Of a stretch of DNA of 64,000 bases, positions 19,593-59,893 are shown in pieces. The notes beneath the pieces are model-generated. The model saw only the letters and a list, made by a program, of their open reading frames with translations, was not told where the DNA came from and ran no database searches. The stretch's first letter is position 1. Each line of letters begins with the position of its first letter. The DNA lies in contig QCGK01000006.1 in the NCBI GenBank assembly GCA_003279945.1, forward strand, positions 27,562-91,561, given 5' to 3'. This DNA comes from Prochlorococcus sp. AG-388-A01 (GTDB taxonomy: Bacteria; Cyanobacteriota; Cyanobacteriia; PCC-6307; Cyanobiaceae). The translations under genes were made by a program, and so were the position numbers.

Positions 19593-20711
19593 CTATCCTT
19601 TCGTCAAGTATTGTTGCTCTTTATTTTGTCCTTGCCACACAGGGACAGTAAAATGGAAGCAGGAACCTACACCAACCTCAGATACGACCCATATTCTTCC
19701 TCCATGAACTTGTACTATTCTTCTGCATACAGATAAACCAATCCCAAATCCAGATGTCCCTTCAGAAGTCTGTGGCAGTCTAACTCTATCCAGAAAAATT
19801 CTTTTTTGCTCGCTCAAAGGAATACCTGCGCCTTTGTCACAAATTGTTATTTCTACCCATTGGTTTGTCTTGTGGATCATTGTAATTTTTAAAGATCCAT
19901 TGTCTTTAGAAAATTTAATGGCATTTTCAATTAAATTTAAAAATACTTGCCGCATTCTTCTTTGATCTGCGAATACGCTCGGTAGATCAGAGGGGATATC
20001 AGTATCAATTTCAATATTCCTTAATCTCCAGAATTTTTCTAATTCTAGTATTACTTCAGCACTAATATTACCTAAGTCAATTTTCTGAGGATTAAACAAA
20101 GCTTCCCATTTGGTTGTTCCAACCTCTAAGAGGTCCTGAGATAAAAGTTCAATCTCTTCTAGTCGCCTTTTAATTACCTCTTGTAATTTTGAAATATCTA
20201 TTTGCCCAAGTTTTTGACTTTGAACAGCCAAAGTGGCTGCAGTCAATGGTGTTCTTAATTCATGTGCAACCATTCTTAATAATCTTTCCTGAGACTCTAT
20301 TCTTTTTGTTAATGTCTCATTCTCTTGCCTTAAAACTAAAAGTTCCTCTTCCAAAAGAAATTCTTTTTGAGTTCTTATTGAATCAATTTTGGAAGGTTGC
20401 AAATTTATTCCTAGATTTTTTGTTAAGCCATCTTGTGTCCACCTTGGTAACCATTTCTGCAACTGAGAGCAAATATTACTTCCAGCAAATATTTGCTTTG
20501 GAGCTGGGGAAAGCTTTATGAGGGCAGGAATAGCAACTAATCTATGTAATTCGAGGAGTTCTGGCTGTTCTGCGGGATCAGATATCTGAAGAGATATCTC
20601 AAATTGACAATCATCTGATTCTAAATAAGCTATCAAGGACTTAATATCACTACTAGAAAGTTGATTTCTAGCGGCAACAAGTATTAATTTTAGCTCTTTT
20701 TTATCATTCAA
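19593..20711 (-). CDS. sasA: Adaptive-response / clock output sensor histidine kinase SasA
   Basis: KaiB-like N-terminal domain ([26 protein letters not shown]), H-box [17 protein letters not shown], HATPase [10 protein letters not shown]...[18 protein letters not shown]. Confidence 0.92.
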
Positions 20712-57690: not shown

Positions 57691-57921
57691 ATGATTACTA
57701 AAACAGAAGTTATTAATTTAATTACGAAAAAATTACCAAGTTCCCAAGTTTTAGTAGAAAACATCAAGGGAAATGATCATTTGCAAGTAACTGTGATTGC
57801 ATCAGAATTCAATGGATTATCATTAGTTAAACAACATCAGCTAGTCTACTCTGCGCTTAAGGAAGAATTAGCTTCTGAGGCCATACATGCACTGGCATTA
57901 AAAACCGAAACACCAAACTAA
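57691..57921 (+). CDS. BolA family protein
   Basis: 76 aa; ASEFNGLSLVKQHQLVYSAL motif; adjacent to grxD. Confidence 0.92.
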   Translation: MITKTEVINLITKKLPSSQVLVENIKGNDHLQVTVIASEFNGLSLVKQHQLVYSALKEELASEAIHALALKTETPN

Positions 57922-57924
57922 ATC

Positions 57925-58248
57925 ATGGACAATTTAACAAAAGACAAGATACAAAATCTAATTGATACTAATCCTGTAATGGTGTTTATGAAAGGCACTA
58001 AATTAATGCCTCAATGCGGTTTCTCAAACAATGTTGTTCAAATACTTAATTCCTTAGGTGTAGAATTTAATACTTTTGATGTTTTAAGCAATTTCGAGGT
58101 CAGGGAAGGTATCAAAGAATATTCGGATTGGCCAACTATTCCTCAAGTCTACTTAAAAGGAGAATTTCTTGGTGGATCAGATATTCTTATTGAAATGTAC
58201 AATTCAGGATCCTTAAAAGAAAAAATAGAAATTGAATTAGCGTCTTAA
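57925..58248 (+). CDS. grxD: Monothiol glutaredoxin (CGFS type)
   Basis: VFMKGTKLMPQCGFSNNVVQIL, WPTIPQVYLKGEFLGGSDI. Confidence 0.96.
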   Translation: MDNLTKDKIQNLIDTNPVMVFMKGTKLMPQCGFSNNVVQILNSLGVEFNTFDVLSNFEVREGIKEYSDWPTIPQVYLKGEFLGGSDILIEMYNSGSLKEKIEIELAS

Positions 58249-58296: not shown

Positions 58297-58566
58297 TTAA
58301 ATATTTTTTTTACCAAAAAAACCCTTATTTTCACCTCCACCTGGTTCAATAAAACTTGATGGATCTAAAATCCATCTCTCTATTAATCTTTCTAATTTCT
58401 CTTGATCTCTCTGCTCTAAACTACTGCAATTCCTTAAGGCTTGGAGATAACCATCACTGTATAATTTTAGGTCAGATGGAGTATGAAAACGAGTAACTAG
58501 CTCTTGGCAAGTATCGCAAATTGATTGAAAATGACGAATTGCCTTTGGATTTTCAAATGATGTCAT
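58297..58566 (-). CDS. Conserved hypothetical protein; start re-assigned to Met at 58566
   Basis: MTSFENPKAIRHFQSICDTCQELVTRFHTPSDLKLYSDGYLQALRNCSSLEQRDQEKLERLIERWILDPSSFIEPGG; the longer ORF to 58698 would overlap the divergent regulator start. Confidence 0.7.
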   Translation of the reverse strand: MTSFENPKAIRHFQSICDTCQELVTRFHTPSDLKLYSDGYLQALRNCSSLEQRDQEKLERLIERWILDPSSFIEPGGGENKGFFGKKNI

Positions 58567-58652
58567 AATTCGATAGATTCGGATTTTTTTTTTGCATTTG
58601 TTATACCTTATTAAGGATGATAAAAAATTGCCTGGCCCAACAGTAATTAAGA

Positions 58653-59390
58653 ATGCAATCAACTGAGCAAATCTTAGCTTCAACCCCTGGCGGTTCACAA
58701 TTGCCTACGAGCTCTCAAACTCCCTCAAGAGTTCTTGTTGTTGAACCTCACCCCACACTTAGAACGGTGCTGGTTCAAAGACTTCGCCAAGATGGACACC
58801 TAGCTGCTGCAGTTGGATCAGCGGCAGAAGCAATTGACCTATGCAGAGAACAATCACCTGACCTACTAGTCAGCGCGGAAATTCTTGAGCAAAATACAGC
58901 AATGAGACTAGCCCAACAATTAGGATCCTCCGTAATTGTTCTTACAGCGAGATCAGGAGTCGAAGCTTTAGTAAACCTCCTAGATGAAGGGGCTGATGAT
59001 GTTCTCAGAAAGCCTTTTGGACTAGAGGAGCTAGCAGCTAGATGTAGAACATTATTAAAAAGAGGAAGAATAGGTTTACAAGAAAAAGTTGAAGTTGGAC
59101 CTCTAGAAGTTCATCTTCTTTTGAGGCAAGTCACCCTAAGTGAGAAGCCTGTAGAACTTAGCCCAAGAGAGTTTGCCCTACTCTGCGCACTTCTTATGCC
59201 TCCTGGCATGGTAAGGAGTCGTCAAGAGCTCCTAAGAATGGCTTGGCCCCCATTCAGCGGAGGTCCTAGATCAGTTGATACCCAAGTATTAACATTAAGA
59301 AGAAAATTAGAGCAGGCTGGATTGGGAGAAGGAGGAGGAATAACTACAGTAAGACAACAAGGTTATAGATTTAGCATCGACAATATCTGA
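58653..59390 (+). CDS. Atypical OmpR/PhoB-family response regulator
   Basis: Receiver-like RVLVVEPHP...DLLVSAEIL...VIVLTARS...DDVLRKPF plus winged-helix LSPREFALLCALLMPPGMVRSRQELL...RSVDTQVLTLRRKLEQAG...TVRQQGYRF. Confidence 0.92.
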   Translation: MQSTEQILASTPGGSQLPTSSQTPSRVLVVEPHPTLRTVLVQRLRQDGHLAAAVGSAAEAIDLCREQSPDLLVSAEILEQNTAMRLAQQLGSSVIVLTARSGVEALVNLLDEGADDVLRKPFGLEELAARCRTLLKRGRIGLQEKVEVGPLEVHLLLRQVTLSEKPVELSPREFALLCALLMPPGMVRSRQELLRMAWPPFSGGPRSVDTQVLTLRRKLEQAGLGEGGGITTVRQQGYRFSIDNI

Positions 59391-59893
59391 TATTTAAAAG
59401 CAAAAATTTCTCCAATAATCATTAAAACTGACAAGAACGTTAATACTTTATAAGTCCATAATGGGGATATGTAAGATATATCTTTAATATCAATACCCGT
59501 TTTACTTGAAAAATTTAGTAAAAATTTATCAAAATCCTCAATCCTTTGTGGAATAAGGTAATTATCCCCTTTATTAGTATTGAAGTAAAAAACTTTACTG
59601 CCCTGACTGGTAGGTAAAGATTTGATTAATTTAATGTCTTTCCAATAAATATCCCAATTTTTCCTCCCAAAAATTTTAGAAATAAAATTAGTTTTATATG
59701 AAACTTTTTTATCACAAGTCTCAACGTAATCACTTGTGACCATAACAATTAAATAAAACCCTAAAATGAAAATAATTATTGAAAAATTTTTTAATTCGTC
59801 AATTGAAATAAATGGAATAGGGATTGTAAGCGCTAAGTATAGTGATATTAATGAACTTTTCACAAAAAAAAGAGTCTTAAACTTCTCTATCAT
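59363..59893 (-). CDS. Conserved hypothetical membrane protein
   Basis: 176 aa, TM segments at both ends; tail-to-tail overlap with the response regulator. Confidence 0.6.
   Translation of the reverse strand: MIEKFKTLFFVKSSLISLYLALTIPIPFISIDELKNFSIIIFILGFYLIVMVTSDYVETCDKKVSYKTNFISKIFGRKNWDIYWKDIKLIKSLPTSQGSKVFYFNTNKGDNYLIPQRIEDFDKFLLNFSSKTGIDIKDISYISPLWTYKVLTFLSVLMIIGEIFAFKYQILSMLNL

Follow-up and report, generated by a model that had tools for sequence, protein, structure and literature searches.

We consider it probable that the response-regulator gene at 58653-59390 (+ strand) of the window, the 64,000-nucleotide stretch of DNA analysed here, encodes an NrrA/Rre37 orthologue that has turned into a full pseudo-receiver transcription factor, one that would act as a phosphorylation-independent dimer on NrrA-like targets under a new input. 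The assignment of the 245-amino-acid product draws on the open reading frame, its domains, trees and gene order. Pseudo-receivers are themselves a known kind of domain; the new elements here are its identification as NrrA, a loss that went in steps, and the uncoupling from two inputs.

The receiver pocket

With respect to overall architecture, a poorly conserved N-terminal tail of ~24 residues precedes the pseudo-receiver domain (residues 26-138, 58728-59066, + strand; PF00072, 50.4 bits), which is followed by an OmpR-type winged helix-turn-helix DNA-binding domain (residues 144-243, 59082-59381, + strand; PF00486, 58.9 bits, E 5e-16). An AlphaFold2 model of the monomer has an OmpR-type fold with the beta/alpha order of a receiver, in which both domains are confident and their relative position is not (pTM 0.52). 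Fold matches of this model include HP1043 (2hqr) and RitR structures.

The residues highlighted in a preliminary description of this DNA were read again from the sequence and checked with Pfam, and all proved correct in identity and position. Specifically, residues 29-34 read VVEPHP, with Glu31-Pro32-His33 at 58743-58751, and residues 69-80 read PDLLVSAEILEQ, which includes Ala75 (codon GCG, 58875-58877); VLTARS contains Thr98 (58944-58946) and RKPF contains Lys120 (59010-59012). The placement of Ala75 at the phospho-Asp column is agreed upon by tblastn, MAFFT and phmmer against PDB chains, and beta3 of the model spans residues 71-75.

This pocket was examined across the picocyanobacterial family (Prochlorococcus, Synechococcus and Cyanobium relatives) using a MAFFT alignment of 116 distinct orthologues. 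The acceptor column holds Ala in 107 sequences, Thr in 6 and Ser in 3, and an alternative Asp in the acceptor place was looked for by alignment and found in none of the 116. Because Asp occurs at this column in no orthologue, Ala75 does not reflect chance or sequencing error. The proposed loss of the acidic pair held for one half of the pair only: the first acid is kept (Glu31; Glu in 95 and Asp in 21 orthologues), but the second, metal-binding acid has been replaced by Pro (110) or Ala (6). The aromatic switch residue, three positions before the Lys, is Val117 (59001-59003) in every picocyanobacterial orthologue as opposed to Tyr in all 58 NrrA sequences of the outside comparison set, and acceptor and Thr are spaced 23 residues apart in all 116, as compared with 27 in most outside relatives. 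Thr98, Lys120, His33 and Glu76, the last lying one residue past the acceptor, are invariant. Glu76 was considered as an acceptor in place of Asp and rejected, as no aligner sets it in the acceptor column.

Measured against a canonical phospho-receiver, the regulator retains the Thr/Ser and Lys residues and lacks the acceptor Asp, the complete acidic pair for Mg2+ and the aromatic switch residue. Its PF00072 match, fold and residues agree with the definition of a pseudo-receiver as a receiver fold minus key phosphotransfer residues (PMC12632262). The absence of acceptor and second acid in all 116 orthologues, together with loss of the aromatic residue of Tyr/Thr coupling, strongly supports the earlier suggestion that this factor is not controlled by conventional His-Asp phosphotransfer. 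The accompanying remark that two-component genes are few is also borne out, with six receiver-domain genes and four HisKA kinases in the 1.55 Mb, Prochlorococcus-like and 88%-complete host genome. One of these four kinases is a 372-amino-acid SasA-like histidine kinase at 19593-20711 (- strand), and the sixth receiver-domain gene (L004, C1:204541-204879 of the same genome) has no OmpR-type winged helix and sits on a very long tree branch.

Elsewhere in the protein, nearly all orthologues retain the ionic residues of the dimer face (D115, D116, R130 and R137). Of the cysteines, Cys64 and Cys178 never vary and Cys131 is present in 108 of the 116 orthologues; the alpha3 cysteine that cyanobacterial OmpR regulators have in common is missing. 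A cysteine redox switch was considered and is a weak idea, as these three cysteines mostly replace hydrophobic residues of NrrA.

In terms of selection, an orthologue is present in all picocyanobacterial-family genomes of at least 90% completeness that were searched, and the regulator is a core gene of Prochlorococcus and of the whole family. Family members share on average 80% identity in the receiver and 93% in the winged helix. Estimates of dN/dS within the genus are about 0.025 in the receiver and 0.006 in the DNA-binding domain, and are rough because synonymous changes are near saturation. Purifying selection of this strength shows that the gene is not decaying, and universal presence, residue conservation and low dN/dS together show that it is functional and that loss of the acceptor was ancestral to the family.

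Descent from NrrA/Rre37 and the upstream region

In a tree of 94 OmpR regulators from the picocyanobacterial family and other cyanobacteria, the picocyanobacterial clade was sister to a clade with one member per outside genome sampled (support 99/98). The same pairing was recovered after removal of long branches (100/97), and no other picocyanobacterial-family sequence falls on the NrrA side in these trees. At 2.1-2.5 changes per site, the stem branch of the picocyanobacterial clade is very long, and the sister placement taken alone may therefore be an artefact; gene order serves as an independent check. The common order, found on the same strands at outside nrrA loci, is a TPR gene, glutaredoxin, divergent DUF6761, regulator and orf176. 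Within the window, this corresponds to a monothiol (CGFS) glutaredoxin gene (57925-58248, + strand; PF00462), the divergent DUF6761 gene (58297-58566, - strand; PF20547, E 1e-30) and, downstream of the regulator, the convergent orf176 (59363-59893, - strand), which has no Pfam match and also occurs at outside nrrA loci. The DUF6761 and glutaredoxin genes lie upstream of the regulator in 59 of 60 picocyanobacterial loci, with the TPR gene beyond them in 57; at 43 outside nrrA loci, the corresponding counts are 23 for DUF6761, 12 for glutaredoxin, 10 for the TPR gene and 11 for downstream orf176. A 76-amino-acid frame judged BolA-like by eye (57691-57921, + strand) lies directly 5′ of the glutaredoxin gene.

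The identity of the outside clade follows from its member in one Synechocystis-like genome, which carries Cys33/66/116, a set unique to Rre37 (Sll1330) in a table of Synechocystis OmpR regulators, and whose start, VSPVYL, fits the MNPVYI given by the Rre37 primer (PMC4361706). Synechocystis Rre37 and Anabaena NrrA are orthologous; the genes for both are induced by nitrogen depletion from promoters bound by NtcA, and both proteins control glycogen and sugar catabolism (PMC4295605). The recognition-helix region of our regulator (AWPPFSGGPRSVDTQVLTLRRKLEQA, 59241-59318, + strand) bears the NrrA/Rre37 signature AWP...PR(S/T)VDT and is 53% identical to the NrrA clade, compared with at most 37% for other OmpR paralogues. 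Receiver identity is about 34% to NrrA and to nearly all other OmpR regulators alike. The lineage signature survives in the DNA-binding half and has gone from the receiver. No curated family cut-off was reached, with scores of 118 of 296 bits for PhoB and 80 of 300 bits for NblR (NCBIfam NF045914).

The short divergent intergenic region (58567-58652) contains a conserved TTATACCTTATTAAG element and no NtcA box. More broadly, a strict box (GTAN8TAC, searched up to 300 bases upstream) precedes 50 of 61 outside nrrA genes, with 4.5 expected from shuffles, versus 1 of 120 picocyanobacterial genes, with 8.4 expected. The strict consensus performed poorly on a glnA control, being found in only 2 of 8 picocyanobacterial glnA promoters, and a weight matrix built from the outside boxes was used for this reason. 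Scores of z above 2 were obtained for 80% of outside nrrA genes, a figure that is not independent given that part of this set served to train the matrix, as compared with 1% of picocyanobacterial genes; on the glnA promoters, an imperfect control, the matrix gave a recognisable box for about 5 of 8. Upstream of the regulator, the NtcA box has apparently been lost in the picocyanobacterial family, and some degenerate NtcA control may persist. Because an NtcA box is missing upstream, we regard the gene as a fast-evolved picocyanobacterial orthologue of NrrA/Rre37 by descent that would stand outside the NtcA-NrrA circuit.

Within the genus, synonymous diversity is 0.06-0.18 in the first 36 codons (58653-58760) and about 0.42 in the remaining gene, the first ~26 bases, counted from the start, hardly vary, and TTATACCTTATTAA, just 5′ of the start (58600-58652), is invariant. 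This low-diversity region may represent a divergent promoter or an element that controls translation. As an RNA element, the 5′ region had no Rfam match and a fold z of -1.15, and a sigma-70 promoter scan gave no more than chance. In other members of the family (upstream regions of loci L013-L036 and L065-L081), a recurrent element like TTGCTTTAGCTTAAG is located ~50 bases before the start, where Prochlorococcus has the conserved element named above; it is possibly a -10 box or an autoregulatory site.

Erosion of the pocket is also seen in NrrA outside the picocyanobacterial family. Among the 58 outside sequences, Asp is retained as the second acid in just four genomes, all from one family (f12) inferred to be Gloeobacter-like; the remaining sequences have Gly, Ser, Thr or Ala there, apart from one Pro. 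The acceptor Asp is missing in separate lineages, with Ala in f10, Ser in Pseudanabaena and likely relatives, and Glu or Asn in single genomes, a distribution that points to several independent losses. Most NrrA proteins already count as pseudo-receivers under the published definition (PMC12632262), with the picocyanobacterial family as the extreme case; a statement to this effect was not found in the open-licence literature, the sole literature searched. The outside orthologues without the acceptor Asp are L087, L095, L177, L305, L307, L313, L317, L321 and L329.

Proposed mechanism and alternatives

In OmpR-type regulators, phosphorylation normally drives pairing through the alpha4-beta5-alpha5 face. 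Because the usual site of the present regulator is not phosphorylatable, it most likely dimerises and binds DNA without phosphorylation, and dimerisation would proceed through the face that retains the ionic residues D115, D116, R130 and R137. Since NrrA-type residues persist in its recognition helix, the regulator probably still reads related promoters, namely those of sugar and glycogen catabolism. With the phospho-switch and the NtcA box both gone, output is probably set by the amount of the regulator itself, by a partner protein or by small-molecule binding. In MED4, glgP peaks at sunset (PMC2663038), which makes nightly glycogen use a natural first place to look.

The manner in which such a protein is switched admits several readings. 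It is possible, albeit doubtful, that the pseudo-receiver is a new sensor, with the DNA-binding half switched by binding of a metabolite or partner rather than by protein amount. Purifying selection on the receiver, two polar residues next to the former pocket that are invariant and specific to the family (His33 and Glu76), invariant Cys64 and the fact that several pseudo-receivers act via partners (PMC12632262) are all in keeping with this idea, but the invariant residues may serve folding or dimerisation only, and Cys64 and Cys178, which stand in for bulky hydrophobic residues, seem to be buried. A further-reaching proposal, which we regard as speculative and rather unlikely, is that NrrA was cut from both NtcA and the phospho-pocket in the family ancestor and that its receiver was rebuilt as a metabolite or partner sensor; if true, an unrecognised signal would govern how the most abundant phototrophs of the ocean break down their carbon stores. 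The kept ionic residues of the dimer face and the WhiI/BldM precedent (PMC12632262) would also suit mixed dimers in which phosphorylation of RpaA or RpaB is read second-hand. We judge this improbable, as the recognition helix is strongly unlike those of RpaA and RpaB.

Other readings concern the origin of the gene or the pocket itself. Given a receiver equidistant from all paralogues and a very long stem, another OmpR paralogue might have replaced nrrA in place in the family ancestor, such that the regulator would not descend from nrrA. The NrrA-like recognition region and the agreement of trees with and without long branches weigh against this, and it is unlikely that an unrelated paralogue bearing this signature was swapped in at that very place, leaving replacement quite improbable. 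Retention of Thr98 and Lys120 could be taken to indicate that a Ser/Thr kinase phosphorylates the protein, or that another pocket residue (Glu76, Thr98 or His33) still accepts phosphate, but this is very improbable considering that the metal-binding acid is gone, that the residue following the acceptor normally faces away from the pocket, and that Glu is not known to serve as an acceptor. The preliminary description had also drawn a comparison with NblR, a cyanobacterial regulator known to work without phosphorylation (PMC12632262). This comparison stands as an analogy only; as a statement of descent it is refuted by trees and score, since NblR proteins over the cut-off form a separate clade, the regulator falls in a different and well-supported one, and its NblR score is the lowest among the OmpR regulators of its own genome; we give NblR orthology virtually no credence.

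A phosphorylation-independent NrrA orthologue, the reading we favour, would bear on the coupling of carbon stores to nitrogen status in picocyanobacteria, where the usual step from NtcA to NrrA is seemingly missing. It would also give a lineage and a testable role to a further, universal picocyanobacterial response regulator; MED4 has about six, of which three are named in the literature consulted (PMC6778093). The switching of pseudo-receivers has been called a mystery (PMC12632262), and NrrA offers natural intermediates in which the second acid is intact (Gloeobacter-like genomes) or lost (most cyanobacteria) and the acceptor Asp was lost several times independently.

Comparison with known systems

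The closest known counterparts are NrrA of Anabaena and Rre37 (Sll1330) of Synechocystis, which share with the regulator a sister-clade relationship, neighbourhood, NrrA-type recognition helix and domain order. Unlike NrrA, the regulator family has neither acceptor Asp nor NtcA box, has Val in place of Tyr and Pro or Ala at the second acid, where NrrA has mostly Gly, Ser or Thr, and is missing Trp42 and Trp89 of NrrA. ChxR, HP1043, RitR and other aspartate-less receivers are likewise OmpR-type proteins with degenerate receivers, but belong to unrelated lineages; RitR in addition senses redox state and has a key cysteine, Cys128, to which no equivalent was identified in the regulator. GlnR of actinobacteria, a nitrogen regulator of the OmpR type, is not orthologous to the regulator. 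Its dimerisation without phosphorylation is a point of likeness, whereas the importance of its D residue for dimer formation is a point of difference (PMC12632262). NblR of Synechococcus elongatus is a cyanobacterial OmpR-type protein that functions independently of phosphorylation (PMC12632262), but falls in a different orthologous group. Finally, RpaA and RpaB are OmpR regulators of the same genome that, unlike the regulator described here, both keep the acceptor Asp and belong to other clades.
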